From positions 1 through 64,000 of the forward strand of contig NZ_CP041969.1 in assembly GCF_014107495.1 (NCBI RefSeq): DNA of 64,000 nucleotides. Direction: 5' to 3'. A model generated the notes under the pieces. The model saw nothing but the letters and a program-made list of their open reading frames with translations. It did no database searches and was not told where the DNA came from. This stretch comes from Cohnella cholangitidis (lineage in GTDB: Bacteria; Bacillota; Bacilli; Paenibacillales; Paenibacillaceae). This document shows positions 34,123-59,497 of the stretch, one piece after another. Made by a program: the position numbers and the translations under genes. How positions within the stretch are numbered: position 1 is the stretch's first letter; every line of letters starts with the position of its first letter.

Positions 34123-35601
34123 TTAGAGTTGAACGGTCTTGGTTGCGATATTTTTGCAAAACTCGCTGTCATGCTCCACAAAAAGGATCGTTGGCGAGTA
34201 TTCAAGCAATAACTGTTCAATTTGCATGCGAGAAAGAATATCGATGAAATTAAGCGGCTCATCCCAAATTAACAAATGAGATTTTTCGCAAAGGCTTTTT
34301 GCGATCAGCACTTTCTTTTTTTGGCCGCCGCTGAAAGAAGCAATATCCTTCTCGAATTGAACTCTGGAAAAATCGAGTTTTCTTAGAATCGCTTTGAAGA
34401 GGCTTTCCTCAATCCCATGGTTATTTGCGTAGTCCGTTAAACTGCCCTGCAAATGCGAGGTGTCCTGCGAAACATAAGATATATTAAGCTGGCTTCCCTT
34501 TCTGAAAGCGCCGGAATATTGAATATTCTCGCCGCAGATCAGTTTAATAATGCTTGATTTGCCCGAACCGTTCATGCCGATTAACGCAATTCGATCGCCT
34601 TGCTCGATCGTAAAGCTAATATCCTTGCAAACCGTCTTCTCGCCGTAATGAATCGAAACATGGTCAAGCTCGGCAAGCTGGTTCTTATGATAGGTTAGTT
34701 GAGCGATTTTTAAGTTGTCGGAGTTTTCGATATTTTTAAGGAGCTTGGACTTTTCTTCCATGGCGGATTGCTGTCTATTTTCAATGGACTTAGAGCGTTT
34801 CATCATTTTAGCGGCCTTGTGGCCGACATACCCTTTATCGACCTTGGAACCTGAATTCAACGTTCCGTTTTTCGTTTTTTCCACTTCGTGCGACCAATTG
34901 CTTGTTCGCTTGGCGGATTCCGATAAGCGTTTAAAGTCCTTCCTTAGCTTTTCGTTCTCCGCAAGCTCAAAGTGATCTTGTCTCGTTTTATTTTCCCACC
35001 AATCGGAGAAATTGCCTCTTTGTATGTCTATGTTGGTCTTATTGATTGAAAGGATGTGATCCACGCAATGATCGAGAAAATATCTGTCGTGGGAAACGAG
35101 AATGAATCCGCTTTTGGCGCGCAAATAATGACTGACGACGGATCTCGCATTCATGTCAAGATGATTGGTCGGCTCATCGATTAACAGGAAACTATTTTCC
35201 TTAAGGAACAAGGCAGCCAGCAACACCTTCGTTTGCTCTCCGTTGGACAAGGACTCGAACGGCCGATACAAAACATCTTCAGAAACCTTTAGCAAGGATA
35301 GCTCGCGCATGAATTCCCAGTGAACATAGTCCGGAACAATGTCGTTGATGACATCAAGGGTGTTCAATTCCTTGTTCTCGACAGGGTAAGGGAAATATTC
35401 AAATTGGACATTTGCTGAAATTTTACCGCTGTACTCGTATTTGCCAAGCAACAAATGGAGAAATGTCGTCTTTCCTCTGCCGTTTCTCCCCGTAAACCCT
35501 AGTTTCCAATCGGTATCGATTTGGAAATTTACGTTTTCAAAAACATTATCATAGCTGCCGTCATAGGCAAACGTCAGGTTTGTCACGTTTATTAATGACA
35601 T
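34123..35601 (-). CDS. ABC-F ribosomal protection protein, Lsa-like
   Basis: 492 residues, two ATP-binding domains in one chain with no membrane segment. The first has Walker A GRNGRGKTTF, signature LSNGEQTKVLLA and Walker B FLLIDEPTNHLD; the second has GMNGSGKSS, FSGGQKKKVLIA and LLIWDEPLNFID. A charged linker of about 80 residues (near 200-290) is the antibiotic-resistance arm that reaches into the ribosome exit site. Lsa-type proteins give resistance to lincosamides, streptogramin A and pleuromutilins, but the exact drug range cannot be read from sequence. A transcription attenuator precedes the gene, and AGGAGG lies just before the ATG. Confidence 0.9.
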   Translation of the reverse strand: MSLINVTNLTFAYDGSYDNVFENVNFQIDTDWKLGFTGRNGRGKTTFLHLLLGKYEYSGKISANVQFEYFPYPVENKELNTLDVINDIVPDYVHWEFMRELSLLKVSEDVLYRPFESLSNGEQTKVLLAALFLKENSFLLIDEPTNHLDMNARSVVSHYLRAKSGFILVSHDRYFLDHCVDHILSINKTNIDIQRGNFSDWWENKTRQDHFELAENEKLRKDFKRLSESAKRTSNWSHEVEKTKNGTLNSGSKVDKGYVGHKAAKMMKRSKSIENRQQSAMEEKSKLLKNIENSDNLKIAQLTYHKNQLAELDHVSIHYGEKTVCKDISFTIEQGDRIALIGMNGSGKSSIIKLICGENIQYSGAFRKGSQLNISYVSQDTSHLQGSLTDYANNHGIEESLFKAILRKLDFSRVQFEKDIASFSGGQKKKVLIAKSLCEKSHLLIWDEPLNFIDILSRMQIEQLLLEYSPTILFVEHDSEFCKNIATKTVQL

Positions 35602-35922: not shown

Positions 35923-36603
35923 TTATACAGACCTTGCAAGACGAAAACCGAGATCGTCGATACGGAACGTAGGATGGCTCCGGCGCCGGCAAGTCGCTCC
36001 GCATCCCCTTGCCTCTTCCGCCCAGCTTCCCCCGCGGAATACTCTATAGGAGCCGTATACTTTCGCGTCGTATACATCCCAACACCACTCCCATACGTTT
36101 CCTAACATATCATAAAGTCCCCACTCATTCGGGAGCTTCTTGCCGACCTCCTGTACCTTGCTCTCGGAGTTTTCGTCATACCAAGCGATCTCATTTAGCT
36201 CGCCGTAACGGTACCCATCCGTCCCGGCTTTACACGCATATTGCCATTCCGCTTCCGTTGGAAGACGATAACCGTTCGCCTCCCAGTTGCATGCGACACT
36301 TTCGTAATCATCGCTTACCGAGTAACATTCTTCCAGGCCCGACTGCCGAGAAAGCAAATTGCAAAAGAGAATGGCATCGTTCCACGAGACGTCCACGATC
36401 GGAGCTTGGCAATTGCCGCTTGGTTCAACTGTCTGTCGTACTGTCGAGAAATATAACTCTTGCGTAACCGGAACCGGCGCAAGCAGGAAAGAATTCACCT
36501 GAGTCGTCCAAAACTTTTTTATGCGATCGTCCCTTAACGCTATTTCGCCTGCAGGGATTTTCACCATCGGATACTCGGCATGGATACGCGGGATTGCCGA
36601 CAC
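35923..36603 (-). CDS. SUMF1/FGE-fold domain protein
   Basis: 226 residues of the formylglycine-generating-enzyme fold, recognised by the motifs GYRLPTEAEWQYACKAG, NEWGLYDMLGNVWEW, VFRGGSWAEE and the C-terminal DDLGFRLARS. Of the two catalytic cysteines of FGE, only the second appears to be present (Cys in ARGCGATC); the first is Glu. It is therefore more likely an EgtB/other SUMF1-like protein than a true sulfatase activator. GGAGGAAGATAA precedes the GTG start, which directly follows the TetR stop, so the two genes are one unit. No sulfatase is nearby. Confidence 0.8.
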   Translation of the reverse strand: MSAIPRIHAEYPMVKIPAGEIALRDDRIKKFWTTQVNSFLLAPVPVTQELYFSTVRQTVEPSGNCQAPIVDVSWNDAILFCNLLSRQSGLEECYSVSDDYESVACNWEANGYRLPTEAEWQYACKAGTDGYRYGELNEIAWYDENSESKVQEVGKKLPNEWGLYDMLGNVWEWCWDVYDAKVYGSYRVFRGGSWAEEARGCGATCRRRSHPTFRIDDLGFRLARSV

Positions 36604-37269
36604 TTATCTTCCTCCATTTCCATCAACGAAACTTCTCACGTACTTGTCGCAAATGTATCGGTTATCTTCGCCGTTCGTTGGCGGAATGTTCGTTACTCTA
36701 AAAAAACTCAGGCCGACTACCATCGCCAGCAGCCCATATGCAGCGCTTGGAGAATCTTCTACTGCCATTTGTCCCGTCGTCTTACCGTAATCGAAAATTT
36801 TCGCTATACCTTGAAGATCGGACAAATAACTCTTCGAGACGACTTCCTGTAAATTACGATCCAATACGGCTTTCGAGAAAAACTGTATAAAGAGCCTTGC
36901 TTGATCTTCATGCGGAATATACATCTTTTCAATTCCATCTAGCTGCGATACGTTAATCCTCATTTTCGAATCGTCGCGGAACGGCGGCAGGATGTGTTTC
37001 AACGTAACGTCCATCATTTCTTCGGCCGTCATGGTTTTATCGATATCCGACTGTATCTTAAGTCCATAGTAGGCCATGAAAGACTTGAACGCTTCGATCG
37101 TCAGATTATCTTTATTTTTATAGTAATAAGTCACTACTCCCTTGGAACAATCGGCGTATTCGGCAACCTTATCCAAAGTCATGCCATCGATCCCGTGAAT
37201 GCTAATGCAGGTCAGTGCTGCGTTAATGACCTCTGCTCGGCGTTTAGGTTCCATTCCTAATTTGGGCAT
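36604..37269 (-). CDS. TetR-family regulator
   Basis: 221 residues with an N-terminal helix-turn-helix (EVINAALTCISIHGIDGMTLDKVAEYADCSKGVVTYYYKNK) and a ligand-binding helical C-terminus. The sequence YYYKNKD at the end of the HTH is the common TetR pattern. It is divergent from the KAS III operon (252 bases between) and directly upstream of the SUMF1-type gene. A candidate half-dyad TGAACGGTCGG near 37301 lies before it. It may control both the SUMF1 gene and the divergent biosynthetic operon; this is inference from position. Confidence 0.9.
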   Translation of the reverse strand: MPKLGMEPKRRAEVINAALTCISIHGIDGMTLDKVAEYADCSKGVVTYYYKNKDNLTIEAFKSFMAYYGLKIQSDIDKTMTAEEMMDVTLKHILPPFRDDSKMRINVSQLDGIEKMYIPHEDQARLFIQFFSKAVLDRNLQEVVSKSYLSDLQGIAKIFDYGKTTGQMAVEDSPSAAYGLLAMVVGLSFFRVTNIPPTNGEDNRYICDKYVRSFVDGNGGR

Positions 37270-37521: not shown

Positions 37522-38523
37522 CTGAATACGCGAAAAGTCAAAATATATGGAACCGGTAAATATTTGCCGGGCCAGCCGATATCGGACTTAGACATGGACG
37601 AACGTCTCGGAACCGCTCCAGGCTGGACGCTTCGAATGACGGACGTCTCTTTCCGTCATTTTGCGGGCGACGGCGATACGGCGTCGTCGATGGGCGCCAA
37701 AGCCGCATTCGAAGCTCTCAAAGAGGCGAATCTGCAATTCTCAGATCTGGATTGTCTCGTAAGCGCGAGCGGCACCAAGGAGCAGGCTCTGCCCTGCTCG
37801 GCTGTATTCATTCAAAAAGCGATGGGAATGGAGCATTCGGGCGTACCCGCCTTCGATATCGATTCGACTTGCCTAAGCTTTCTGGCCGCGCTCGATGCCA
37901 TGTCCTGCATGATCGCAGCCGGACGGTACCGTTACGTGTTGATTGTCTCGTCCGAGATCGCCTCCGTCGGACTGGATTGGCAGCACAAGGAAAGCGCGGC
38001 CCTGTTCGGCGACGGAGCCGCCGCGGTCGTTATCGGCCCGGCGGGAGACGGCGAAAAGGCCGGAATCGCCGGAGCTTCCTTGCGAACGTTCAGCGCCGGA
38101 GCGGCTTATTCCGAAATACGAGCCGGCGGCACGAAGCATCACCCGCTTGGTCCCGCTCCCGCTCAGCCGAACGATTATTTGTTCCAAATGGACGGACCGG
38201 CTATTTTCAAAATGGCTTCTCGCCTTCTTCCGGCCTTTACGGATGAACTTCTAAGAAACGCAGGCACGAGAATGTCGGACCTTAAAGCCGTTATTCCCCA
38301 TCAAGGCAGTGCGATGGCCGTCCGTCTTATGCGCAAAAAATTGGGTATTTCGGAGCGGCAGCTCGTATATATCACGCCTCATCACGGCAATACGATCGCC
38401 GCTTCTATCCCCATGGGCCTTCACGAGTCGATTCGAACGGGTCGGATCGCAAGAGGCGATCGCGTATTGCTGATAGGTACGGCTGCGGGACTTACGCTGG
38501 GAGGGCTCGTCCTTGACTATTAG
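37522..38523 (+). CDS. 3-oxoacyl-ACP synthase III-like condensing enzyme
   Basis: 333 residues of the KAS III/FabH fold. Catalytic Cys is in DIDSTCLSFLAAL, catalytic His in AVIPHQGSAMAV and Asn in TPHHGNTIAAS, so the Cys-His-Asn triad is complete. The reading frame opens at CTG (37522), eight bases after AAAGGAG; the residues it adds (TRKVKIYGTGKYLPG) match the usual start of KAS III proteins, and no ATG, GTG or TTG start lies nearer, so a CTG start is likely. It begins a seven-gene overlapping operon without other fatty-acid genes, so it probably condenses acyl-CoA or acyl-ACP units for a special product. Confidence 0.85.
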   Translation: MNTRKVKIYGTGKYLPGQPISDLDMDERLGTAPGWTLRMTDVSFRHFAGDGDTASSMGAKAAFEALKEANLQFSDLDCLVSASGTKEQALPCSAVFIQKAMGMEHSGVPAFDIDSTCLSFLAALDAMSCMIAAGRYRYVLIVSSEIASVGLDWQHKESAALFGDGAAAVVIGPAGDGEKAGIAGASLRTFSAGAAYSEIRAGGTKHHPLGPAPAQPNDYLFQMDGPAIFKMASRLLPAFTDELLRNAGTRMSDLKAVIPHQGSAMAVRLMRKKLGISERQLVYITPHHGNTIAASIPMGLHESIRTGRIARGDRVLLIGTAAGLTLGGLVLDY

Positions 38524-39754
38524 AGCAGACTCGGGTTCTCTGCGAATTCTCCTCACCGGAGGGAGATCGCCGGCAGCTTTGGAATTGGCCCGCTTATTTC
38601 ATGCATCCGGACATCGGGTATTCGCGGCCGAGTGTGCCCCTTACCATTTGTGCCGGGTATCCCGGTCAGTCGAGCGCAGCTTCGCCGTACCCGATCCGGT
38701 TGGCGATCCGTCCGGATTCGTTCTGGCGCTGCGAACGATCGCGGAGACGAACGACATCGACGTACTGATCCCGACCTGCGAGGAAATTTTCCATATTTCC
38801 GGAGAACTTCACCTGTTCGACGGCGTCTGCCGGGTGTTCGCCGCTTCGCTCGACGAGATAGAGCGCGTCCATCACAAAGAGAGCTTTATTCGCTTCGCCG
38901 AGAGCATGGGCTTGCAGGTTCCGGTCACGAAGCTTATCGAATCCCCGGACGGTTGGTTGCCTCTTCTCGGCGATCCTCGGTTTCAACAAGGTCTCGTACT
39001 CAAACCGGCTTATTCCCGATTCGCTTCCCGAACGCTTTTGATAGATTCGCGCCACGGTTCGCTTGCCTCTAGTCAGCGGCAAGCTATCGTTTATCAACTA
39101 GCAAACGCAAAAGCGTCGCCTAACCGTCCTTGGGTTGCGCAAGAGCTGCTTCGGGGCGTAGAATGGTGCACCTATAGCGTAGCTCACGACGGCGTAATCG
39201 CGGCGCATGCCGCATACCGCAGCCGATTTCGCGTCGGGCGCGGAGCCAGTATTCATTATGAGCCGGCTAACCAACCTCAACTACTGGAGTGGGTTAAGCG
39301 CTTCGTTAGGCAAAGCGGGTTTACCGGCCAAATCGCGTTCGACTTCATGGTATCGCCGGACGGTGCCGTAACGCCGATGGAATGCAACCCCCGCGCGACG
39401 AGCGGCGTTCATCTGTTCCGATCGGACGGAAGATTGGTGGAGGCAATGCTGGCACCATCCGGCTTAATAGAGTCTGAATTCATCACTACCCCTTCGTCCG
39501 GAACGGGACGCGGGGCCATGCTATCCGCCGCGATGTTGTCGTTTGGGCTCATTCAAGCGGCCAGACAACGCATGCTTCGCGATTGGCTGCGAGCCTATAG
39601 GAACAGTCGCGACGTCGTCTTCCGATGGGATGACCCGAAACCGTTCGCCGAGCAATTCCGGCTCCTTGCATGGACTAAAAGGATTGCCAAAAGTCGGGGC
39701 ATCTCCCTTCAGGAGGCTTCGACATTAGATATAGAATGGAATGGTGAACGATGA
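38513..39754 (+). CDS. ATP-grasp domain enzyme
   Basis: 413 residues. An N-terminal Rossmann-like preATP domain (ILLTGGRSPAALELARLFHASG) is followed by the ATP-grasp fold (about 120-310): lysine in LVLKPAYSRFASRTLLI, acidic loop VAQELLRGVEWCTYS, and the metal-binding MECNPRATSGVHLF. The fold makes amide or thioester bonds through an acyl-phosphate. It starts with TTG inside the KAS III gene (11-base overlap), so the two are coupled. It may join an acid from the pathway to an amine or thiol. Substrate unknown. Confidence 0.85.
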   Translation: MTIRADSGSLRILLTGGRSPAALELARLFHASGHRVFAAECAPYHLCRVSRSVERSFAVPDPVGDPSGFVLALRTIAETNDIDVLIPTCEEIFHISGELHLFDGVCRVFAASLDEIERVHHKESFIRFAESMGLQVPVTKLIESPDGWLPLLGDPRFQQGLVLKPAYSRFASRTLLIDSRHGSLASSQRQAIVYQLANAKASPNRPWVAQELLRGVEWCTYSVAHDGVIAAHAAYRSRFRVGRGASIHYEPANQPQLLEWVKRFVRQSGFTGQIAFDFMVSPDGAVTPMECNPRATSGVHLFRSDGRLVEAMLAPSGLIESEFITTPSSGTGRGAMLSAAMLSFGLIQAARQRMLRDWLRAYRNSRDVVFRWDDPKPFAEQFRLLAWTKRIAKSRGISLQEASTLDIEWNGER

Positions 39755-40749
39755 CAAAGGCGCTTGTAACCGGCGCGACGGGATTCCTCGGGCGGGCGAC
39801 GGCCATTCGTCTTGCAGAACTGGGTTGGGACGTTACGGGCCTCGGCCGCGACGGGCATGCCGGACGGCTGTTAACCGCGCAAGGAGTTTCCTTCCTTCAA
39901 GCGGATTTACTCGACAAAGAAAAAATGGCGGCTGCCTGTGCAGATCAGGATTTCGTTATTCACTGCGCGGCATTGTCCTCGCCTTGGGGGCGCTACCGGG
40001 ATTTTTACGCAACCAACGTCACCGGGACGGAACATGTCGTCTCCGGCTGTATTAGCCATGGAGTGAAGCGGCTAGTACATGTCTCGACGCCAAGCGTTTA
40101 CTTCGATTACACCGATCGCTTGAATATTACCGAGCAAACGGCGCTTCCGCGGAAACCTGTTAACGCCTATGCCGCCACTAAGCTCATCGCCGAGCGTATC
40201 GTAACGGATGCGGCGGTCCGGGGCTTGCCGTCGGTCATCTTGCGTCCGAGAGCTATTTTCGGGCCAGGCGATACATCGCTCTTCCCCCGTCTGCTGCGCG
40301 TGAACGAGTCGCGGGGCATTCCGATTATCGGCGGAGGCCAAGCGCAGCTTGATCTAACCTTCATGGACAACGTCATCGACGGGCTTGTTCAAGCTTGCAC
40401 CGCGCAAGATAGCGCCACCGGACAGATTTACAATCTCACGAACGGCGAACCCGTCAAGCTGATCGAGCTGCTGCAGAGATTGTTTGCTTTGTTGGAATTG
40501 CCGCTTCGGACCAGATCCGTCTCTCGTCCGGTCGCGTTGGCAGCGGGGCGAGGAATGGAATGGCTATACCGAGCCTTCCCTTCGCTTGGGCAAGAACCGC
40601 AGTTCACGAGTTATACGGTTGGTTTACTCGCTTATAGCCAGACGCTTGATATTTCCAAAGCTCGTCGATCTCTTGGTTATGAGCCGCGAATCCGTATAGA
40701 CGAAGGATTACGACGTTTCGCGGACTGGTGGAGGAATGATCGTGCATGA
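39751..40749 (+). CDS. NAD-dependent epimerase/3-beta-HSD family, OleD-like
   Basis: 332 residues. The nucleotide-binding motif is TGATGFLGRATAIRL, and the catalytic pair is Tyr and Lys in AYAATKLIAE. The segment SSPWGRYRDFYATNVTGT and VKRLVHVSTPSVYFD is close in pattern to OleD, the reductase of bacterial olefin and beta-lactone synthesis. It overlaps the ATP-grasp gene by four bases and the next gene by four. In that pathway a KAS III-like enzyme makes a beta-keto acid that OleD reduces; the pairing here suggests similar chemistry. No OleC or OleB-type gene follows. Confidence 0.88.
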   Translation: MTKALVTGATGFLGRATAIRLAELGWDVTGLGRDGHAGRLLTAQGVSFLQADLLDKEKMAAACADQDFVIHCAALSSPWGRYRDFYATNVTGTEHVVSGCISHGVKRLVHVSTPSVYFDYTDRLNITEQTALPRKPVNAYAATKLIAERIVTDAAVRGLPSVILRPRAIFGPGDTSLFPRLLRVNESRGIPIIGGGQAQLDLTFMDNVIDGLVQACTAQDSATGQIYNLTNGEPVKLIELLQRLFALLELPLRTRSVSRPVALAAGRGMEWLYRAFPSLGQEPQFTSYTVGLLAYSQTLDISKARRSLGYEPRIRIDEGLRRFADWWRNDRA

Positions 40750-41609
40750 CTTACTCTCCACAGGAAACGGTCGAGCTTCTGCTCATGTCCGCCGGCTATT
40801 GCCTGCATCCCGAATTCGTAACGCTTCGCGGCGGTTCGATTCGTTCCGCGGCTTATCCCGCCGGCTTCGTTTGTATCCGTCACCCGTCGCGCGGCTGGAT
40901 TCTATTCGATACCGGCTATTCCTCCCGTTTTCTCGAGCTGACGAAGTCGCTGCCTTATTCGCTATACCGCTGGCTAACCCCGGTTCGGCTGCAAGAGGAA
41001 AATACCGCCGTTCGCCAGTTGGTTAAGTTAGGTATAAAAGCTGAAGATGTCCGTTACGTGATTCTCTCCCACTTTCATGCCGACCATATCGGCGGCGCGC
41101 GGGACTTCCCTTACGCCCGGTTTCTCTATCCGCAGGCGTCCTATGAAGCCGTTCGGACGCTCGGCCCCGTCCGAGCGACTCGCGCCGGCTTCATCGCGGG
41201 ATTGTTGCCGGATGGTTTCGCCGAAATCGGACAACCGATCGAGCGTGAGGGTAAGAGCGTATCTCTCCCTGACGGCATGCCCTTTAACGTCGGCCTCGAT
41301 ATTTTCGGAGATGGCAGTCTGATCGCGATTCAACTGCCGGGACATGCCGCGGGCCAGATCGGCCTGCTGCTCCGCACGGCTAACGCGAGAGTATTGCTCT
41401 GCGCGGATGCCGCTTGGTCTAGCCGGGCGATTCGCGAGAATCGCCCGCCTCATCCCGTAGCCGGCTTCGTGATGTCCGATCGATCGGCGTACCGCGATTC
41501 GTTCGAACGACTGCGAAGATGGCAAGCCGCAGATCCCGGTTTAATCATCGTACCTAGTCACTGCCGTGAATTTTTCGATATCGACAGCAAGGAGGTTCGC
41601 CGTCTATGA
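40746..41609 (+). CDS. Metallo-beta-lactamase-fold hydrolase
   Basis: 287 residues. The metal site HxHxDH is SHFHADHIGG (about 100-108); other ligands are His in LPGHAAGQIGL, Asp in LLCADAAWS and His in VPSHCREF, so the dinuclear site is complete. The spacing and the RHPSRGWILFDTGYS opening resemble N-acyl-homoserine-lactone lactonases. In this operon it may hydrolyse a thioester or lactone intermediate rather than quench signals. Overlaps of four bases at each end show tight coupling. Confidence 0.87.
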   Translation: MTYSPQETVELLLMSAGYCLHPEFVTLRGGSIRSAAYPAGFVCIRHPSRGWILFDTGYSSRFLELTKSLPYSLYRWLTPVRLQEENTAVRQLVKLGIKAEDVRYVILSHFHADHIGGARDFPYARFLYPQASYEAVRTLGPVRATRAGFIAGLLPDGFAEIGQPIEREGKSVSLPDGMPFNVGLDIFGDGSLIAIQLPGHAAGQIGLLLRTANARVLLCADAAWSSRAIRENRPPHPVAGFVMSDRSAYRDSFERLRRWQAADPGLIIVPSHCREFFDIDSKEVRRL

Positions 41610-42927
41610 AGAACGCAATTGCTTTTATCAAACATTACATGGACGGCAAAAGACGAGGGAGATGGGCCGATCGAGCGTCGTTCGAACGTTGGCGCGAAAG
41701 CCGGGTCGTCCGTCACGTCGATTTCGTCCGCGAACGATCCGCTTTTTATCGAGAATGGTGGGGGACGATCCCTTCCGCGCAGTGGCGGTCCTTTCCCCTA
41801 ATCGACAAATCGGTTATGATGGAGCATTTTGACCGTTTGAATACGGCTGGCATTACCAAAGCGCAAGCTTTTGGCTTGGCGGATGCAGCCGAACGATCGC
41901 GAGACTTCAAGCCGGCACTGGGCGAAGTGACGATCGGCTTGTCCTCCGGCACGTCCGGCAACCGCGGACTGTTCCTGGTCGGCGCTCGCGAACGGGCGGG
42001 CTGGGCAGGCGCGATGCTTGGCAAGATGTTGCCCGGCTCCATCCTCTCCCGTACGTCTATAGCTTTCTTCTTGAGAGCGAACAGCAATTTGTACGAATCG
42101 GTGCGTGGCAAACGGCTTTCATTCGCCTTCTATGATCTGCTCGATCCGATGTCGGATCATCTTGAGAGACTCGGGCGTCAGCAGCCGGACGTGATCGCGG
42201 CTCCTCCTTCGGTGCTTCGCGTGCTCGCCGAAGCGCTCCGAACCGGCAAGCTGGACATTCGGCCTCGGCGGATACTCTCCGTCGCCGAAGTACTGGATCC
42301 GCTGGACCGTGATTATATCGGTCAGGCGTTTGGTCAAACCGTCCATCAAGTTTATCAATGCACGGAAGGATTCCTCGGTTGCACCTGCGCGCACGGTACG
42401 CTCCACTTGAACGAAGATTTGGTCTATATCGAGAAGGAGTACGTACCGGGAAGAACGAGAACGTTCGTTCCGATCGTCACCGATTTCTCGCGCACGACGC
42501 AGCCGATCATCCGCTATCGGTTGAACGACCTGCTGACCGAGAGCGAACTCCCCTGTCCTTGCGGTTCTCCTTTTACGGCAATCGAACGAATTGAAGGCCG
42601 TTGCGACGATATTTTCTATGCGACCAGAGACGATGCACACGGGGAGCTCGTGACCGTATATCCAGACTTTGTGACGCGCGCGATCATCGGAGCCTCTCCA
42701 GCCCTTACTCAGTACCGGGCGTTCAGACGAGGCTGAACAAGTGGACGGTCGAGCTTGAAGTTTCGGAAGATCAGCGCGCGGCCACGGAGGAACTCGTCAG
42801 CCAGGCAATCGCGGCTTTATGCGAACGACTGCGCTGCCGAGCGCCGGAGCTTGACTTTGCCGCTTATTCGTATAGTTCCGCCGGGCTGAGGAAGCTGCGG
42901 CGCGTCGAGAGGAGATTCCAGCCGTGA
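41606..42927 (+). CDS. PaaK/F390-synthetase-like adenylating enzyme (frameshifted)
   Basis: About 440 residues when corrected. The phosphate-binding motif is GLSSGTSGNRGLFL (about 112-125); later motifs are VYQCTEGFLGC, an ATP-binding aspartate region, and QPIIRYRLNDLL. The uninterrupted frame stops at 42736; the next frame carries on with TRLNKWTVELEVSEDQ and stops at 42927, overlapping the next gene as GTGA. One base seems to be missing at 42716-42721 (CGGGCGTT). Such enzymes activate a carboxylate as an acyl-adenylate, here probably the pathway acid. Without the correction the C-terminal domain needed for the second half-reaction would be absent. Confidence 0.83.
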
Positions 42928-44078
42928 GCCCGCGCGTGGAACTTTTCGATTCATCGAACGTGAATTCCTATGCATGGCCCGATACCGAATACGGCCGCTA
43001 TGCCAGGAGCTATCTTCTTCCGTTGCTGGAGCAAGGCTCCGAACGGTTCGTCCGGAACGTCCGCACGCGGATTCTTGTTCTCTCGGTAGACGGGATTCCG
43101 GTCCCCGTCACCGTTAACGATGCCGAGTACGACAATTCCTATGTTTGTTCGCCATATACGCACTATGTCAGTTACGCCAAGCAAGAGCTTGTCCTGCTTC
43201 GCAATCGAGCTCTTATTACGTGCTTTAGCGCGATGTTATCGGGGATCGGGTTATCTCTTAAGAGCTCGCGCTTTAATCGGATCGTTCACGTCAACAACTG
43301 GCTATTATCGACCAACCTCTACCCTGTGCTTGACGAGAAACAATGGGACGCCGCGCTGGACAAGCTTCTGTTCGCGTTTCCCGACCACGCTATCGCCTTC
43401 CGGTCGCTCAATCCGTCTCTTAATGCGCGGGAGCTGGATCGGTTGCGTTCACGGAAGTGTCGACTCGTCCCAAGCCGGCAGATTTATTTGCTGTGGACAA
43501 ATGATGCAAGTTTCGGTAATGCCAAGGCGCGATGGCTGCTTAAACGGGATGCAAACTTGGCCGACACTCACGGTTATTTTAAGGTTAGCGCAAGCGAAAT
43601 GACCGACGCCGATATTCCTCGGATCGCGGAGCTGTATCGAATGCTCTACTTGGAGAAGTACTCTTTCCACAATCCTCAGTTCACGGAAAGATTTTTGGCC
43701 GAAGCGCTGCATGAAGGAACGCTGGAGCTGTACGGCTACCGCCGCCATGGACGGCTGGATGCGGTACTCGGATTCTATGCGCGGGACGGCGCCATGACGA
43801 CGCCTCTGTTCGGATACGATACGTCCCTCCCGCAGGAGCTTGGCTTGTACAGGATGCTTTCAGCGTTGCTTATCGGATTGGCTCGCGAACGAGGTCTGCT
43901 GTTGCACGAGAGCTCTGGTGCGGCCCAATTCAAAAGGAATAGAGGCGCTATTGCGGAAATCGAATATACGGCGGTTTATATTCGGCACTTGCCATTGCGC
44001 CGCAGATGGAGTTGGTCGGCGCTCGAATGGCTGTTGGCGAGAATCGGCGTTCCTCTATTGCGCAAATACAAACTTTAA
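42924..44078 (+). CDS. GNAT-like/FemX-like acyltransferase-type protein
   Basis: 384 residues. The N-terminal half (1-200) has a degenerate GNAT-like pattern (TRILVLSVDGIPVPVTVND), and the C-terminal half (about 210-350) has ADIPRIAELYRMLYLEKYS, LYGYRRHGRLDAVLGFYAR and ALLIGLARERGLLLHESSGAAQFKRNRGA, a layout seen in double-GNAT or FemX-type aminoacyl and acyl transferases. The start is GTG overlapping the stop of the preceding gene. It may transfer an activated acyl group to an amine. The family assignment is weak. Confidence 0.6.
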   Translation: MSPRVELFDSSNVNSYAWPDTEYGRYARSYLLPLLEQGSERFVRNVRTRILVLSVDGIPVPVTVNDAEYDNSYVCSPYTHYVSYAKQELVLLRNRALITCFSAMLSGIGLSLKSSRFNRIVHVNNWLLSTNLYPVLDEKQWDAALDKLLFAFPDHAIAFRSLNPSLNARELDRLRSRKCRLVPSRQIYLLWTNDASFGNAKARWLLKRDANLADTHGYFKVSASEMTDADIPRIAELYRMLYLEKYSFHNPQFTERFLAEALHEGTLELYGYRRHGRLDAVLGFYARDGAMTTPLFGYDTSLPQELGLYRMLSALLIGLARERGLLLHESSGAAQFKRNRGAIAEIEYTAVYIRHLPLRRRWSWSALEWLLARIGVPLLRKYKL

Positions 44079-44105
44079 GCTAGAGACGAAGTAAGGAGCC
44101 AAACC

Positions 44106-44954
44106 ATGCCGAATAAAGAGAAGATCGCGCTTGTAACCGGCGCTTCCAGCGGCTTTGGCCTGCTGATCGCAGTCGCATTGGCGGATAAGGGATATCGGGT
44201 CATCGCCACGATGCGCGACTTGGATCGGCAAGCGCCTTTAAGGCAAGAAGCCGAACGGTACGGCGTCGGCGCAAAGCTCGAGATCATGAAGCTTGACGTT
44301 ACGGACGCTTCATCGATCGATGAGGCCGTGACTCGCACGGCCAGCTTGTTCGGTCGAATTGACTTATTGGTGAACAACGCCGGGTTTGCCGTGGGAGGTT
44401 TCATCGAAGAGGTCCCGATGGAAGCCTGGCGAGCGCAGATGGAGACGAACTTCATGGGGGTCGTCGCCGTCACCCGTGCCGTCTTGCCTTTAATGCGCCT
44501 GCAAAGAGAAGGCGCTATTATCCAGATCGGGAGCGTCAGCGGCAGGGTCGGTCTGCCGGGATACGGGGCGTATGCCGCCTCGAAGTTCGCGATCGAAGGC
44601 TTCAGCGAAAGTCTGCGCCATGAGGTGGCGCCTTACGGTATCCGGGTATTGCTAGTGGAGCCCGGCGCCTACCGGACGCCGATCTGGAGCAAAGGCTTCG
44701 CAAGCCTATATAAGCTGCCGAATTCTCCGTACGCGGAAAGTTTGGCATCCGTGCTCGAATATGCCGCCAAGACGGCGGACGCGTCGCCGGATCCTCGGGA
44801 GGTAGCAGACCTCGTCGTCCGACTAGCCGTGCAAAAACGCTCAAAGCGGCTGCGCTACCCGATCGGGCGGGGAGCCCGGCTGCTGATTCTAGCCGGGAAA
44901 TTGCTTCCTTGGCGCTGGATCGAGGCGGCCGTCCGCCGGACGCTTAACAAATAA
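44106..44954 (+). CDS. Short-chain dehydrogenase/reductase
   Basis: 282 residues of the classical SDR type: cofactor motif TGASSGFGLL (about 12-21), NNAG in LVNNAGFAVGG, catalytic Ser in IQIGSVSGRVG and YxxxK in YGAYAASKFA. The C-terminus (RYPIGRGARLLILAGKLLPWRWIE) is typical of SDRs acting on lipids or sterol-like substrates. GTAAGGAGCC precedes the ATG, 27 bases after the GNAT-like gene. It ends the operon, with a strong terminator right after the stop. It probably performs a reduction on the KAS III product. Confidence 0.92.
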   Translation: MPNKEKIALVTGASSGFGLLIAVALADKGYRVIATMRDLDRQAPLRQEAERYGVGAKLEIMKLDVTDASSIDEAVTRTASLFGRIDLLVNNAGFAVGGFIEEVPMEAWRAQMETNFMGVVAVTRAVLPLMRLQREGAIIQIGSVSGRVGLPGYGAYAASKFAIEGFSESLRHEVAPYGIRVLLVEPGAYRTPIWSKGFASLYKLPNSPYAESLASVLEYAAKTADASPDPREVADLVVRLAVQKRSKRLRYPIGRGARLLILAGKLLPWRWIEAAVRRTLNK

Positions 44955-44986: not shown

Positions 44987-46063
44987 TCAATTATTGGCGT
45001 CCAATGCTTTTTTTAATTCCTCGAGGTAGCGGAACCCATATTTCTTGTCAGCCTCCAGATATGCCCCTTCACCCCATTCGTTCCACGCATTAAAGAATAT
45101 AAAATCGGGGTGGAAGCTTGCCTTGGCTCTCTTGATTGCCGCAGACATATAAGCTCCGAACTTCTCGGGGGAAGCATTGCGCAGCACCATGCCGCTATAT
45201 CCCCTTCTCGGGGAATTATCCCAGTCGTTGAATGCGCCCAATATGATGCTTTTTCCCTTTCTCTTTATCTTTCTTTCCAGAATACGTTTCCAGACTTCAT
45301 CGTAATCAAACATCTTCAGTGCTCTCCCGGATAGCGGATTCGGATCATTCACTTCCGTGAATCGCCGTTTATTTCCTAGGTCAAGACGCATCGTATAGTT
45401 TGGCTCAAGTACTACCGTAGCATCGAATCCCGGGATATCCGCATCATAGAAAGCATTGATCGTTTCGATGAAATAAATGCCCTTCAGACCATTTTCTCTA
45501 GCCAACCTTTGCCAGTAATTTAATTTCTCCGCGCAAGCCGGAATGCCCGCAGAGTTATGAATTACGAAAATCGGTTTCCCTTTATATCGAATATATCTGG
45601 AGTCTTTGAAACAACTAAGCAGATAATCAAAATGTTCCTTCCACTCCGCTTCCTCCCCATATTCTTGTCGGAGAAGAAGCTTATCTTTGGCGGCTTTTCC
45701 CGGTTCGTTCCACTTTATCCAATCGTGGTTGGCCCAGCATAGACAGAAAGGAAAATCCGGCTTGCCCGATTGCAATACTTCGTTAAACGGCCTTTCGAGC
45801 AACCTTCTGCCTTGAAACCAATAATGGTAGTAACAAAACCCGTAAACTCCGTATTTCTTCGCAAGATAAGCTTGCTGCTCCCTTACGGAAGGATCCGTTA
45901 AATCATAATATTGGCTCCGATAAGGCTGCCTAGGCTGATAATGTCCCGGAAATAAAGGCTTTGCCTTGCGGGTAAAAGTCCATTCGGTAAAACCGTTTCC
46001 CCACCACTTGTCATTCTCCCGAATGCGATGAAATTGAGGCAAATAATACGCGATTACTTTCAA
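44987..46063 (-). CDS. WbsX-type GH99-like glycosyl protein
   Basis: 358 residues of the WbsX family (PF14307), related to GH99 glycosidases: YYLPQFHRIRENDKWWGNGFTEW near the N-terminus, GVYGFCYYHYWFQGRRLLE, then PFCLCWANHDWIKWN and NAWNEWGEGAYLEADKKYG near the C-terminus. These proteins are encoded in polysaccharide loci and act as glycosyltransferases or hydrolases of mannose-like units. There is no signal peptide. The TupA-like gene lies 36 bases upstream in the same direction, so they are probably co-transcribed. Confidence 0.9.
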   Translation of the reverse strand: MKVIAYYLPQFHRIRENDKWWGNGFTEWTFTRKAKPLFPGHYQPRQPYRSQYYDLTDPSVREQQAYLAKKYGVYGFCYYHYWFQGRRLLERPFNEVLQSGKPDFPFCLCWANHDWIKWNEPGKAAKDKLLLRQEYGEEAEWKEHFDYLLSCFKDSRYIRYKGKPIFVIHNSAGIPACAEKLNYWQRLARENGLKGIYFIETINAFYDADIPGFDATVVLEPNYTMRLDLGNKRRFTEVNDPNPLSGRALKMFDYDEVWKRILERKIKRKGKSIILGAFNDWDNSPRRGYSGMVLRNASPEKFGAYMSAAIKRAKASFHPDFIFFNAWNEWGEGAYLEADKKYGFRYLEELKKALDANN

Positions 46064-46099
46064 TGACTCCCCTCCCCCCGGGCCGAGGCGTTTCGGCCG

Positions 46100-46917
46100 T
46101 CAATTGTATTTCGATAAATCAAGCAATCCGCTCAATAACATCTCGTACTCCATCGGGTAATGTTTAAATCCGCTTTCGGGGGTAAACGTCAATTCTCCGA
46201 AATAAATCCGGTTATTCGTGTAATAGAGATCAACGCGTACCATAGCGAAGCCCTTGGCCAATCTCGCCGCTAACGCGGTCATTTGATCGAGAGCATCCGG
46301 TCTATGGACAAGCTGGGGAAAATTAGGATAGGCGGCCTTGAAAGGAAGTCTGTTCCAGTTCAAGTCGTAAATATCGCGTTTGTGGTTCTTGTAGCGATCG
46401 CCGTCGACCTGTACGTATACCGGCTTCCCATGAAAGCAAAAAAACTTATAGTCTTTCAGGTCTCCCGATGGATCTTCAAGCCGATGTTCGATCAGAATAC
46501 GTCCCTTTAACGGCTTATAGTTGGGCTCCCGATACAAATCATAATAATTGCTTCTCAACCATTCCTTTAATTTTGCGCTCGTTTTCTCCCAATCAACCTT
46601 CGTTTTGTCCTTAACGTTTATGTTCCAACCGGATCCATGGGTCGCCTTCATAACGAACGATTGCGGGAGCGATTCAATGGGAATTTGGCTAACTTTCTTA
46701 TAGATGCCGATGATTGGCACAAGATAGGACTCTCCGATTCGTTTCGACACATAACGGCGTACCTTGAACTTATCAACGTATTTCGCGAATCTCTCCAAGT
46801 TTCCGTTTAATTTGATCCATTGTATTTTCTCCGAGAACGTTCGCGGTTAGCTAAATTCGGCGAGCATCCATGGTACTTTTCGAAAGTCGACTTAATAAAG
46901 CTTACATCCTCATCCAT
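46100..46917 (-). CDS. TupA-like ATP-grasp ligase (frameshifted)
   Basis: About 272 residues when corrected. Reading starts at ATG 46917 (DEDVSFIKSTFEKYHGCSPN), and one base is missing in the run at 46845-46846 (AACCG should be AACCCG), after which PRTFSEKIQWIKLNGN and KYVDKFKVRRYV follow without break. The N-terminal PxTFxEKIQW block, ATP-grasp lysine in SFVMKATHGSG and metal site FGELTFTPESGF are those of TupA, which attaches glutamate to teichuronopeptide or capsule polymers. The TTG at 46798 gives only 232 residues and cuts off this conserved block. Confidence 0.83.
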
Positions 46918-47116
46918 CTAACCATCACTTCCATCCCAGAAATGTTTTAAGCGACATTAATATTCTATGTAGCCGAAGCATTGCTGGAATTAGGGTTATG
47001 ACTGTTTTTAGCGTTAAAGGCCGACCTATCCCGAACATAATGGAAGCGCCCATAACATTTGTCTATTTCTTCACATATACTTGTCTTAGCACATGGAGAA
47101 GGAAGGCTAGAAATGT

Positions 47117-48769
47117 ATGAAGACCAGGAATAACAATCCTGTGACGGATATGGACAGCTTTCGGACGATGAAAAAAGAGTTGAAATGGACAATCATCGAT
47201 AAATTTTTCAGGCCTGTTCAAGATAAGAACAAAGATCCGTTCTTTAGAAAAATGAAAGATCTCAAGCGCCTCCTTATTCGGAAATACCGGTCTAAATCCC
47301 AGCGCTCGTTGATCTCCGTTATTATGCCGACGTTTAATCGCGCTAAAGTGATCCCTTTCGCGATCCGATCCGTTCTGCGGCAATCCTATCGAAATTGGGA
47401 GCTCATCATCGTGGACGATGGCGGACAGGACGATACGGAAAGAGTCGTTCAAGCATTCAAAGATCCAAGAATCAGATATTTCAAAAAAAGGTTCAATAAA
47501 GGCGCAGGCTCAGCTAGAAACGCGGGACTGCGAATCTCTTCCGGAACATACTTGGCTTATCTGGATTCCGATAATGAATGGGATCCCGACTACTTATTAT
47601 TAATGGTCAACGCATTAAAGAACTCTCCTTCGCACGAATCGATCTATTGCGGACAGGATATTTACCGCAGTTCGAAGAGGAGTCCCGACATGAAGTTCGA
47701 AGGCGTACGCGCGGGACTTTTCAATAGATCGATGCTGGAAAATAAAAATTACATCGATCTTAACGTCTTCATGCACCATCGGAGTTTGTACGAGAAGCAT
47801 GGCGGTTTTGACGCGAAGCTAGTTAAACTGCTGGACTGGGATCTCCTGTTACGCTATTCGAACGATAGTTTCCCCTTCTTCCTCCCCTGCAGATTAGGCA
47901 CCTATTATTTCGGAAGGGCCGACAATCAGATAACCTTCAAGAAGAGGGTAAAACCAATGGCTCGACTCCATGCCAAATTGATGTCCGCCCCGTTAATCTT
48001 AGAATCGGCGCCGAAGTTGCAATCCGTATTGAAAATCTCATCCTTCTTCTCGATCCCGAAGGCAAATGATAGGCTCGATTTAAGCAGAAAAACGACGGTT
48101 ATTTTTGTTCCGAATTCAAAGGACCTACGGCTCGTTCGACTTAGCGTGGAAGCATTATTGAAAAATACGGATAGAAGAGCTTATTCATTGATCGTCATCG
48201 AACATCATTCCTCCCGGGATTTCGCTCGCTATCTTAAATCTCTTGAATCCGCCGGACATGCAACAATCATATGGACAACTAGCAATTCAAGCCTTTCGCG
48301 GAAAGTTAATCTAGCGATTAGCGCAGCGGAATCCGACCACGACATTGCGATCGTTAACCACGCGACATTGGCGACGAACGGATGGCTTGGCGGCATGCAG
48401 CAAGTGATAACGGATATTCCGAACGCAGGCATAGTCGTACCCAGACGTGTCCTGCCGCGTAATTCTAGTTATATTACGCAGCATGTTCCCTTCTGCTCCC
48501 GAAATTTCGAGGCTGATGTGAGCTTGTCTATGCATAATAGGAATATTGTCGACCCTTTTCTTATGCTCTCCAAAGGATATGTGGAACTTTCGTATGCCCC
48601 TTTAATGGGCGTGCTGTTATCCCGTGAGTGGTTGAAAAGAAACCGAAGCAACCTCGTTTTTGGGAAGAACGACTATAAATCGAATCTGAAGATGTGCGAG
48701 CAAGCGGTTAAAGACGGGTTTAAGGTCGTATACACACCTCATTCGAAAATTTACTACGTGCACAAGTGA
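47117..48769 (+). CDS. Glycosyltransferase family 2 protein with two GT-A-like domains
   Basis: 550 residues. The first GT2 domain (about 70-320) has ISVIMPTFNRAKVIPFAIRSVLRQSYRNW and the metal-binding VDDGGQDD, with NKGAGSARNAG and LDSDNEWDPDY. The second (about 345-550) begins VIFVPNSKDLRLVRLSVEALLKN but lacks a clear DxD, so it may be non-catalytic. The N-terminal 50 residues are basic. GGAAGGCTAG precedes the ATG. It is divergent from the TupA/WbsX pair and probably builds the same cell-surface polymer. Confidence 0.9.
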   Translation: MKTRNNNPVTDMDSFRTMKKELKWTIIDKFFRPVQDKNKDPFFRKMKDLKRLLIRKYRSKSQRSLISVIMPTFNRAKVIPFAIRSVLRQSYRNWELIIVDDGGQDDTERVVQAFKDPRIRYFKKRFNKGAGSARNAGLRISSGTYLAYLDSDNEWDPDYLLLMVNALKNSPSHESIYCGQDIYRSSKRSPDMKFEGVRAGLFNRSMLENKNYIDLNVFMHHRSLYEKHGGFDAKLVKLLDWDLLLRYSNDSFPFFLPCRLGTYYFGRADNQITFKKRVKPMARLHAKLMSAPLILESAPKLQSVLKISSFFSIPKANDRLDLSRKTTVIFVPNSKDLRLVRLSVEALLKNTDRRAYSLIVIEHHSSRDFARYLKSLESAGHATIIWTTSNSSLSRKVNLAISAAESDHDIAIVNHATLATNGWLGGMQQVITDIPNAGIVVPRRVLPRNSSYITQHVPFCSRNFEADVSLSMHNRNIVDPFLMLSKGYVELSYAPLMGVLLSREWLKRNRSNLVFGKNDYKSNLKMCEQAVKDGFKVVYTPHSKIYYVHK

Positions 48770-49047: not shown

Positions 49048-52000
49048 CTAAAACTGAAATCCCGAGCCGAAGAGTGTGTCTTCCGTATTCGTAGATTCGT
49101 GCAACTCATCGATTCCCGTAAGCTTGCCAAGACTCTCCGACGGAGAAGCCGCAACTTTCTCTAGCAGCTTCAGCAGCTCGTCGGCCATTTCGGCAACGGT
49201 CTCTTCCCGAAACAAGCTGGAACGATAGTCAAAGGCGAGCTCTAACGCTCCATGCTTTTCTTCCGCCTGAAGCACGAGATCAAGCTTCGCCGCAGCGAAG
49301 TTCCACGGCAACGTCCGCCAAACAAGCCATCCCCATGGGACGGCGCAGGGTCCATGTTCTGCATCACGAACATCGTCTCGAAAAGCGGATTACGGTTCCC
49401 TTCCCAACGGACAATACCCTTTTCGCTCAACACATCGGTAAGATCTTCCGCGGATACCCAAGGATGCTCGAACGCTTCCATCAGGCTTACCTTAACCTCT
49501 CTTAGCCAGTCTTCGAACGTAAGCGTAGGCTCGGGACGGTTGCGGATGGCCCAGGTTTGAAGCAACAAGCCGGCGGTCTGCGCCAGATCGGGATGATTTC
49601 GGCCAGCCGATGGCACGCCGGTCACGATATCCGTCTTCCCGGACCAGCAACCGAGCAGCGCTTGATAGGACGCAAGCATGACCATGAACAAGGTCGTTCC
49701 CGTACGCGTGGCAAGGTGCTCCAACTCGGTTTTGATAGAACTATCTACGAGAAACGAATATCGGTCGGCTTTGTCCAACTCGGATAGATCCGACACCGAC
49801 TTTCTTTCCCGGTCGTACGGCAATTCGAATTCCGGTATCCCATCCGCGAACTTCGAGATCCAATAAGCCTGCTGCCGATCCCACTCCGCTTCGTTCCGAA
49901 GGTTAGCGATCCATGCGCTATAATCTTTGAGCTGCGCCTTCACCTCCGGCAATGGCCGATTCTCGTAGAGCGCCAGCAAGTCGCGAACGAGAATGCCCGA
50001 CGTCACCCCGTCGGATACCGCGTGATGGATGTCGAGGAGCAAGAGATGTCGCTCCGGCCCCATCCGTGCGAGTCCGACTCGGAAGAGCGGCGATTGCGTC
50101 AGTTCGAACGGGCGAAGCCACGCTCGCGCCGCAGCTTTCCAATTCCCTTCGACCCCAGAGAAAAAAGCCTTCTCTTCCAACGTTTCCAGTTCGACGTTCG
50201 TCTCCGCGTGAACGATCTGAACCGTTTGACCCTCCGATTGGCCGAAGGAAGTACGAAGCGATTCATGCCGGTCTGCGAGCCGGATTAACGCTTCCTTCAG
50301 CCTGTCCGCGTCCAGCTCCCCTTCAAGCTCCAGCACCGACGGCATATGATAAGACAGGCTGCCGGGATTTCGATATTCATGCAGGAGCATTTGCTTCTGC
50401 GCGGGAGTAATCGCGTAGTGCGGTTGGTTCGGCGCCCGGGGAATGGAGAACTCTGCGACTTCGGTTTGTTCGGTCGCATCTATTCTTTGAGCCATCTTGC
50501 GTATCGTCGGATACAGGAACATATCTTTAACCGAGACTGGAACGGAGAATCCTTCCCCGATGCGCGCAGCCAACGTAGCGGCTTTCAACGAATGACCGCC
50601 GATGGCGAAGAAATCGTCGTCGATGCCGACTTTGTCCCGTTGCAGCAGCTCCTCCCATAACGCGGCCAATCGTTGCTCCGTCGCCGTGGTCGGCTCGGCG
50701 TACGCCACCCCAGTGTCCATCTCCGCTTCCGGCGCCGGCAGCGCCTTCCGGTCGGCCTTTCCGCTCGCCGTCAGCGGCATCCGCTCCAGCTGCGCGAACA
50801 GCGCAGGGATCATATAGTCCGGCAGCCGCTCTCCGCAATGCTTGCGCAGCTCGCCCGACGTGCAGGCGCGGTCCGCCACGATGTACGCCACTAGACGTTT
50901 GCCGCCCATTCCGTCATCCGCCGCCACGACCGCTGCCTCCGACACCGCATCATGCGACAGCAGCGTTCGCTCGATCTCGCCAAGCTCGATCCGGTACCCC
51001 CGGATTTTCACTTGGTCGTCGATTCGGCCCAAGTATTGAATCTGTCCGTCCGTCGTCCAACGGGCCAAATCGCCCGTCCGGTACATGCGCGTCCCCGGCA
51101 CGAACGGGTTCGCCACGAATTTGTCCGCCGTCAGTTCCGGCTGGTTCGCATAACCCGCCGCCAGCTGCACGCCCGCGATGCACAGCTCCCCGGGCACCCC
51201 GATCGGCTGCGCCTGATCGCTTTCGCCGACGATATAGATCGCCGTGTTGTCGATCGGCTTGCCGATCGGCACGTAATCGAGTTCGCTGTCCGGCTCGCAG
51301 ACGTAAGCCGTCACGTCTACCGTCGCTTCCGTCGGGCCGTACAGGTTAACCAGCTTCGTTTCGGTCAATCCAGCTTGGCGCATTAACGCGTAGAATTTCT
51401 CGACGTGCGCCTTATGCAGCGCTTCACCGCTGGCGAACACGTGCCGCAGCGTGCCCAGCTTCTCCCGCAGCCGCTCCGGCTTCTCGCCCTGCGCCGCTTC
51501 CAAGAACGCCGCCAGCATCGACGGAACGAAGTGCATCGTCGTGATGCGGTTTGCTTCAATGGCTTTCAGCAGTTGTCCCGGGTCTTTCTCCGCGCCCGGG
51601 GCAAGGAATGCCACGCTGGAACCGGATAACATCCACCAGAACAGTTCCCACACCGACACGTCGAAGCTGTACGGCGTTTTCTGCAAGATGACGTCCCGCT
51701 CGCCGAGCGAGTATGCCTGCTGCATCCAATGAATCCTGTTAATAACGGATCGGTTCCGGATCATGACGCCCTTCGGCCGTCCCGTCGAACCGGACGTGTA
51801 AAGAATGTATGCGTTTTGCTCAGGGGAGACAGCGACATCGGGTGCTTCCGCGCTCCCTTCTCCGTCTAAATCCAGGTCGATAAGCGCGGCATCCGAGCAA
51901 GCCTCCGCGGCGAAGCCTAACCAGTTCGCTTGCGCGCAGACTAGGCGAAGGCCCGCATTGTCGGCCATATAGCGCAGCCGATCCGCCGGAAAGTCCGGAG

Positions 52001-59444: not shown

Positions 59445-59497
59445 ACTGCTCTCTCCTTTGCTTTCGTTTCCGTCTCCGTCCCCAGGCTATTCGCTGC

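Follow-up and report, generated by a model that had tools for sequence, protein, structure and literature searches.

The stretch of DNA analysed here, hereafter the window, comprises 64,000 nucleotides of Cohnella cholangitidis (NZ_CP041969.1, positions 1-64,000, forward strand), and all coordinates refer to it. At 37522-44954 it carries seven genes encoding, in order, a ketoacyl synthase III-type enzyme (KAS III), an ATP-grasp protein, an OleD-like reductase, a metallo-beta-lactamase-fold hydrolase (MBL), an adenylating enzyme of the PaaK/F390 type (the adenylator), a GNAT-like protein and a short-chain dehydrogenase/reductase (SDR). A first-pass annotation made from the sequence had proposed a seven-gene operon at this position, and all seven genes were recovered there on the plus strand. 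They are listed below together with the divergent regulator gene.

36604..37269, minus strand: TetR-type regulator, divergent, a possible regulator of the operon (PF00440, 9.3e-8)
37522..38523, plus strand: KAS III of the PRK07204 family, CTG start (NF005541, 414.7 over a cut-off of 402)
38513..39754, plus strand: ATP-grasp carboxylate-amine ligase-like protein, PRK06849-like (NF005315, 352.6 under a cut-off of 406)
39751..40749, plus strand: OleD-like extended SDR reductase (PF01370, PF01073; NF042422, 237.9 against a cut-off of 580)
40746..41609, plus strand: MBL (PF00753)
41606..42736, plus strand: F390/PaaK-type adenylator, in-frame part, 376 codons (TIGR02304, 480 over a cut-off of 251.9)
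42721..42927, plus strand: C-terminal piece of the adenylator in another frame (alignment with the intact Paenibacillus urinalis protein)
42924..44078, plus strand: dupli-GNAT protein with a Fem/MprF-like fold (fold matches)
44106..44954, plus strand: classical SDR oxidoreductase, PRK06914 (NF005372, 377.2 over a cut-off of 320)

The genes had also been called overlapping, which holds for the front of the operon: the KAS III and ATP-grasp genes share 11 bp, and the ATP-grasp/reductase, reductase/MBL and MBL/adenylator junctions overlap by 4 bp each. It does not hold for the GNAT-like and SDR genes, which are separated by 27 bp, and the adenylator overlaps the GNAT-like gene only via its off-frame piece. 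The CTG start of the KAS III gene at 37522 is reasonable, since the annotated P. urinalis protein has its residue 1 at the aligned position.

Conservation and variants of the operon

The identical seven genes, in identical order, are present on a plasmid of P. urinalis. To place the operon more widely we compared 98 loci, comprising the window and the loci numbered L032-L128, with near-duplicates kept in the counts (L127 and L128 with L120; L040 with L032). An adenylator was found in 95 of these, L036, L038 and L123 being without one, and the reductase, MBL and adenylator genes are consecutive in 82. Eighty of the loci come from GTDB genomes. They are the 80 most similar to the P. urinalis adenylator among at least 579, and so form a non-random sample that leans to Bacillota and in which the adenylator is present by construction. 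All four core genes (KAS III, OleD-like reductase, MBL and adenylator) were called in 72 of these 80, and 70 keep the order KAS III-(ATP-grasp)-reductase-MBL-(SDR)-adenylator on one strand. The accessory genes are more variable (ATP-grasp in 72, GNAT in 50 and SDR in 37), and the eight remaining loci lack one or two core calls, namely the reductase (L044, L046, L064), the MBL (L087, L088), both KAS III and reductase (L106, L111), or KAS III (L118). The first-pass annotation had been prepared to stand or fall by whether this gene order recurs in other genomes, and it is widely kept.

A less biased view of co-occurrence came from two separate family searches, for TIGR02304 and NF005541 (E-value limits of 1e-60 and 1e-85), across 59 genomes from the same family as the window, counting the window's genome itself. 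Each family exceeded its cut-off in 13 genomes, and these were the same 13, with the two matches 2.2-3.5 kb apart; the number of possible choices, C(59,13), is 4e12. At the limits used neither family was found in the other 46 genomes, among them the four further ones from the window's genus. Pairwise protein distances also correlate across 21 gene pairs (r of 0.77-0.94; for none of the pairs did any of 300 permutations reach the observed value), a measure that genome relatedness alone can raise. In a wider, less related draw over the phylum, just 6 of 299 genomes held a TIGR02304 match above the cut-off, and the operon is therefore patchy in its distribution. Because gene order is conserved and the families co-occur, chance is excluded; the existence of a conserved operon is near certain, and its core is co-inherited with both order and catalytic residues kept.

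Around this core the accessory genes differ by clade. In the variants of Rhizobium and Shinella a Rieske protein is added, as is an ATP-grasp gene in divergent position, and three of the 80 GTDB loci (L085, L096 and L110) hold a second ATP-grasp, a GNAT and a Rieske protein. In Paraburkholderia the core is followed by ATP-grasp and GNAT genes. In Ketogulonicigenium and on two Paracoccus plasmids the four-gene core is accompanied by divergent TetR and sulfotransferase genes and has neither an ATP-grasp nor a GNAT gene beside it. The loci from Parachlamydiaceae (L105) and Gastranaerophilales (L104) are contigs of metagenome-assembled genomes (MAGs), and their hosts are consequently less sure. 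For two cyanobacterial loci (L106 and L118) no KAS III call was obtained.

In Escherichia coli a seven-gene version lies between narI and a tRNA-Tyr gene, as seen in CFT073 and JJ1887 (L120:6191-13072; L127; L128). Here the core, without ATP-grasp or GNAT genes, is followed by genes for a PAP2 protein, a fatty-acid hydroxylase and a fatty-acid desaturase, and related tail genes of all three kinds follow the core in Burkholderia stagnalis. The E. coli stretch was matched by 672 of 5426 complete genomes; the match spans 80% or more of the stretch in 671 of these, and its placements are 671 chromosomal and 2 on plasmids. The E. coli KAS III reaches 333.4 bits to PRK07204, under the cut-off, and the hydroxylase 66.6 bits to the ornithine-lipid hydroxylase OlsE, whose cut-off is 475. 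The annotations looked at gave the core proteins family-level names only.

The absence of a carrier protein, remarked on in the first-pass annotation, is borne out for the operon itself. Across the 98 loci, a motif filter applied to same-strand open reading frames of 70-120 residues within 3 kb returned only two candidates, a poor one (L098) and a real acpP at a locus without the core (L123). The latter is a Priestia megaterium plasmid on which a KAS homologue adjoins an acyl carrier protein (ACP) gene and an MMPL transporter gene, the rest of the core being absent (L123:7995-11623).

Enzyme families and catalytic residues

The KAS III passes the curated NCBIfam cut-off of PRK07204 and falls below that of FabH (TIGR00747; 225 against 292.1). 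Its closest solved chains, by phmmer as well as by profile, are MxnB (4v2p; 234 bits) and CorB (4yuc; 228 bits), and by profile it is nearer MxnB (317 bits) than PqsD (3h76; 146 bits). The best NCBIfam family of MxnB and CorB themselves is PRK07204, although both score under its cut-off. The Cys117/His260/Asn290 triad is present in 90 of 90 aligned KAS proteins (residue counts throughout leave out proteins shorter than 75% of the window protein's length), and FabH too has a Cys-His-Asn triad without the Glu that is characteristic of OleA. At the position equivalent to Val94 of MxnB, an equivalence taken from PMC4578411 and an alignment, the cluster proteins have Ile (55/90) or Leu (35/90), and the OleA/PpyS Glu, a catalytic residue at the KAS dimer interface, occurs in none.

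PMC4578411 describes this Glu as the base in OleA and PpyS, with the E105A variant of PpyS giving no product. In MxnB and CorB the residue at the place of the PpyS Glu is Val94, and the same paper suggests that their alpha-carbon, being flanked by two carbonyls, may be deprotonated without the Glu. By the same logic, as the Glu is absent, the nucleophile for the cluster KAS III is likely an activated partner (beta-ketoacyl or malonyl), and joining to an unactivated fatty acyl chain is unlikely. The resemblance to MxnB and CorB, of myxopyronin and corallopyronin synthesis, takes in their standing as nearest solved relatives, the triad and the missing OleA-type Glu (PMC4578411, PMC5724707). However, these two proteins serve polyketide synthase (PKS) assembly lines and form pyrones, whereas the operon has a reductase and neither a PKS nor a carrier protein.

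For the reductase the best NCBIfam match is the OleD family NF042422, far under its cut-off, and Ser112, Tyr140 and Lys144 are kept in 88 of 88 aligned sequences. The MBL is closest among solved chains to N-acylhomoserine lactonases (AttM/AiiA type) and 4-pyridoxolactonase. With the former it shares the fold and the two-metal ligand set, as His109, His111, Asp113, His114, His200 and Asp221 are found in 89 of 89 aligned sequences; His272 is found in 87, with gaps in the other two. The differences are that it lies far under the NCBIfam cut-offs and that residue 224, three positions after the metal-binding Asp, is Trp in 87/89 and Tyr in 2/89, where the aligned lactonases have a Tyr that we take to be catalytic. 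Judged by this replacement, the MBL is more likely a thioester than a lactone hydrolase.

The PaaK/F390-type identity that had been assigned to the adenylator stands up well. Its in-frame part alone passes TIGR02304 (F390 synthetase-related), the SSGTSG and YQxTEG motifs hardly vary among 95 aligned adenylators, and a profile search of solved structures gave eight relatives, four named phenylacetate-CoA ligase and two PaaK-like ligase. A Pfam search returned no family for either the adenylator or the ATP-grasp protein. A feature that the first-pass annotation had missed is that the adenylator frame is broken near 42.72 kb, with the open reading frame stopping at 42736. Up to the break the protein is 79% identical to residues 2-379 of its P. 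urinalis counterpart, and an off-frame piece (42721-42921) aligns to residues 376-441 of that 442-residue protein with 60% identity, its stop codon at 42927 overlapping the start of the GNAT-like gene. The last ~65 residues therefore lie out of frame, and with them the conserved C-terminal Lys of ANL/PaaK enzymes, which is presumably catalytic and is found in 93 of the 95 aligned adenylators, with a gap in two, the window protein among them. Relatives carry intact copies. In Cohnella faecalis (L113:9911-11343) the adenylator gene is also split. Given this second split gene we considered programmed frameshifting and rejected it as unlikely, because the two breaks are at different places; the break in the window is either a sequencing error or a mutation.

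The ATP-grasp fold was confirmed for the second protein, which lies under the PRK06849 cut-off and belongs to a large fold group holding PurK, PylC, biotin carboxylase and an L-amino acid ligase. Lys164, Glu290 and Asn292 are each present in at least 97% of 80 aligned sequences. A distant homologue in Nostoc (L038; 29% identity) adjoins genes for a 3-dehydroquinate-synthase-like protein, an O-methyltransferase and a D-alanine-D-alanine ligase domain (L038:7665-13565), presumably a mycosporine cluster. In mycosporine synthesis the ATP-grasp enzyme MysC attaches glycine.

The label of GNAT-like had been correct in that the sixth protein is a tandem GNAT, and its fold can now be refined to the FemX/MprF aminoacyl transferase type. 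Among its fold matches, aminoacyl-tRNA-dependent synthases, FemX and MprF rank best, and tandem GNATs that use coenzyme A (CoA) come just below. The likeness to FemX/MprF and to the aminoacyl-tRNA-dependent peptide synthases Sba18 and Sbb17 extends over most of its length, but sequence identity in the top 23 fold-match rows is 8-14%, and use of aminoacyl-tRNA is putative. Phe336-Lys337 is present in 56 of 56 aligned proteins, and a Phe-Lys pair is used in the aminoacyl-tRNA site of FemX. The solved relatives nearest the ATP-grasp and dupli-GNAT folds include amide ligases and aminoacyl transferases, and on these fold matches the ATP-grasp protein is a putative amino-acid-ligase-like protein and candidate amide former. 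The SDR passes PRK06914.

Proposed route and competing explanations

We favour the reading that the window holds one version of a widespread unnamed operon, in which an acyl-condensing core is joined in this genome by aminoacyl decoration, and put its probability at roughly 0.45. The four-enzyme core would build an acyl product and the clade-specific genes would decorate it. In a first step an acyl group would be loaded on Cys117 of the KAS III for Claisen condensation with an activated partner, a beta-ketoacyl or malonyl thioester carried on CoA or a borrowed ACP. The new beta-ketone would be reduced by the OleD-like enzyme, and the MBL would hydrolyse the thioester (or lactone) to the free acid, much as PqsE works in the synthesis of the Pseudomonas quinolone signal (PQS). 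The PaaK-type enzyme might then re-activate this acid through an acyl-AMP. In this genome the ATP-grasp protein may couple an amino acid or a related amine through an amide bond, aminoacyl-tRNA may serve the Fem/MprF-like protein as donor of an aminoacyl group, and the SDR would adjust redox state. The outcome would be an aminoacylated acyl product and probably a lipid. Behind the core in E. coli and Burkholderia stagnalis there are instead genes for a PAP2 phosphatase, a fatty-acid hydroxylase and a fatty-acid desaturase. The product of the operon is likely acyl-derived and probably a fatty-acid-derived molecule, to which amino acids may, going by the fold matches, be attached in this genome; the acyl amide suggested in the first-pass annotation is supported as a plausible product.

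A broader version of this reading, which we hold slightly more tentatively, is that the core represents an undescribed class of bacterial acyl metabolite, made with an MxnB-like ketosynthase and given aminoacyl, sulfate, Rieske or desaturase/hydroxylase decoration depending on the clade. Such a class could span the Bacillota, the Pseudomonadota, a Gastranaerophilales MAG, a Parachlamydiaceae MAG and about one eighth of complete E. coli genomes.

Two other routes are unlikely, though each accounts for part of the data. The first is an aryl-ketide route like that of PqsA-PqsD-PqsE, in which the PaaK-type enzyme would activate an aromatic acid, the KAS III extend it, the reductase reduce the ketone and the MBL release the product, which would then be amidated; the end product would be a small metabolite or a signal and not a lipid. 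PQS synthesis has an adenylating ligase, a KAS III and an MBL hydrolase in one operon, and the cluster has the same enzyme classes (CoA/AMP ligase, KAS III, MBL). PaaK enzymes use aromatic acids, and six of the eight solved adenylator relatives bear phenylacetate-CoA ligase or PaaK-like names. Yet the profile scores place the KAS III with MxnB rather than PqsD, the cluster has additional reductase, ATP-grasp and Fem-like genes, no aromatic-acid gene was seen inside the operons of the annotated regions looked at, and the tails in E. coli and Burkholderia encode a fatty-acid hydroxylase and a desaturase.

The second, equally doubtful in our estimate, is a head-to-head fusion of two acyl or beta-ketoacyl chains as carried out by MxnB and CorB, leading to an alpha-pyrone or to a reduced branched lipid of the 2-alkyl-3-hydroxy type. 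It would explain the resemblance of the KAS III to these enzymes, the Ile/Leu at the position of their Val94 (PMC4578411), and the fact that OleD, the nearest named family of the reductase, is a 2-alkyl-3-oxoalkanoate reductase. Against it, the reductase, ligase and MBL would be superfluous for a pyrone, and MxnB and CorB do not reach the PRK07204 cut-off.

The remaining readings rank as less likely than these two. There is only a slim chance that the operon makes a sphingolipid-like lipid without serine palmitoyltransferase, with the KAS III building the chain, the reductases acting in the manner of ketosphinganine reductases and the GNAT-like enzyme adding an acyl or aminoacyl group. The window SDR scores 209 bits to the 3-ketodihydrosphingosine reductase KdsR, and PAP2, fatty-acid hydroxylase and desaturase families do occur in sphingolipid metabolism; this score is under the cut-off of 400, however, KdsR is just one of 231 families that the SDR matched, and no pyridoxal phosphate-dependent oxoamine synthase is annotated in the regions looked at, of which L126 carries no annotation.

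OleABCD-type synthesis of an olefin or beta-lactone, in which the adenylator would stand in for OleC and the MBL for OleB, is highly improbable. The first-pass annotation had likened the operon to the first steps of this pathway, and the likeness stands at the superfamily level for all four steps (a thiolase-superfamily KAS, an SDR nearest OleD, an adenylating enzyme and a hydrolase). It does not go further: the OleA/PpyS Glu is in 0 of 90 aligned KAS proteins, the KAS III is nearest MxnB/CorB, the reductase scores under the OleD cut-off, the adenylator is a TIGR02304 protein whose solved relatives are of the PaaK type, and no alpha/beta-hydrolase family is among the listed matches of the seven proteins. 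Membership of the Ole pathway was rejected on the missing Glu and the NF042422 score, and the earlier remark that OleC and OleB are lacking holds, the hydrolase being an MBL and no OleB- or OleC-like gene being recognised. As remote again is a catabolic or quorum-quenching operon in which a lactone is opened by the MBL and the resulting acid is channelled into degradation by the adenylator: the lactonases among the nearest solved chains and the kept metal ligands speak for it, but Trp replaces the lactonase Tyr in nearly all the MBLs, and a KAS III with its triad intact, together with the ATP-grasp and Fem-like genes, speaks for a biosynthetic role.

We file the cluster among KAS III-based biosynthetic clusters, outside the Ole, Pqs and pyrone systems. 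The operon is coherent and, as first stated, fits no recognised pathway: none that matches was found in the published literature searched; a description of the cluster was likewise not found in open-access full texts by narrow searches, and a subscription paper could exist. The operon offers a compact genetic handle on a natural product of undescribed structure. Knowing that product would inform PRK07204, PRK06849 and TIGR02304, NCBIfam families of unstated function, and would reveal the role of an MxnB-like ketosynthase outside antibiotic assembly lines, with the core present beside narI in E. coli chromosomes and in many Bacillota.

Neighbouring genes

When three TetR queries are used, a match of more than 100 bits is found within 3 kb at 5 of the 98 loci (the window, L039, L121, L122 and L125); three of the five are the queries themselves, and orthology of the TetR proteins is without support. 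Next to the divergent TetR gene in the window, on the minus strand, lies a gene for an FGE-sulfatase-domain protein (35923-36603); another minus-strand gene encodes an ABC-F protein barely above the cut-off of the Lsa ribosomal-protection family (34123-35601; 765.7 against 750). In 10 of the 98 loci (e.g. L108:4867-5754) a gene for a DUF1731-type epimerase precedes the operon by no more than 0.5 kb.

Downstream the operon is adjoined by genes for a WbsX-type glycosyltransferase, a TupA-like ATP-grasp protein and a GT2 protein (44987-48769), followed on the minus strand by PKS and nonribosomal peptide synthetase (NRPS) genes that run toward the window end (49242-63998). This set encodes a 3400-residue protein with ketosynthase, condensation and adenylation domains, a CPBP-type protein and a FabD-like acyltransferase. 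These genes were set aside as partners of the operon, as the three glycan-type genes intervene; a link was kept as possible because a plasmid of Paracoccus alcaliphilus has NRPS genes and a phosphopantetheine-binding protein gene ~4 kb from its four-gene core, with an AMP-binding gene also nearby (L125:1-2748).

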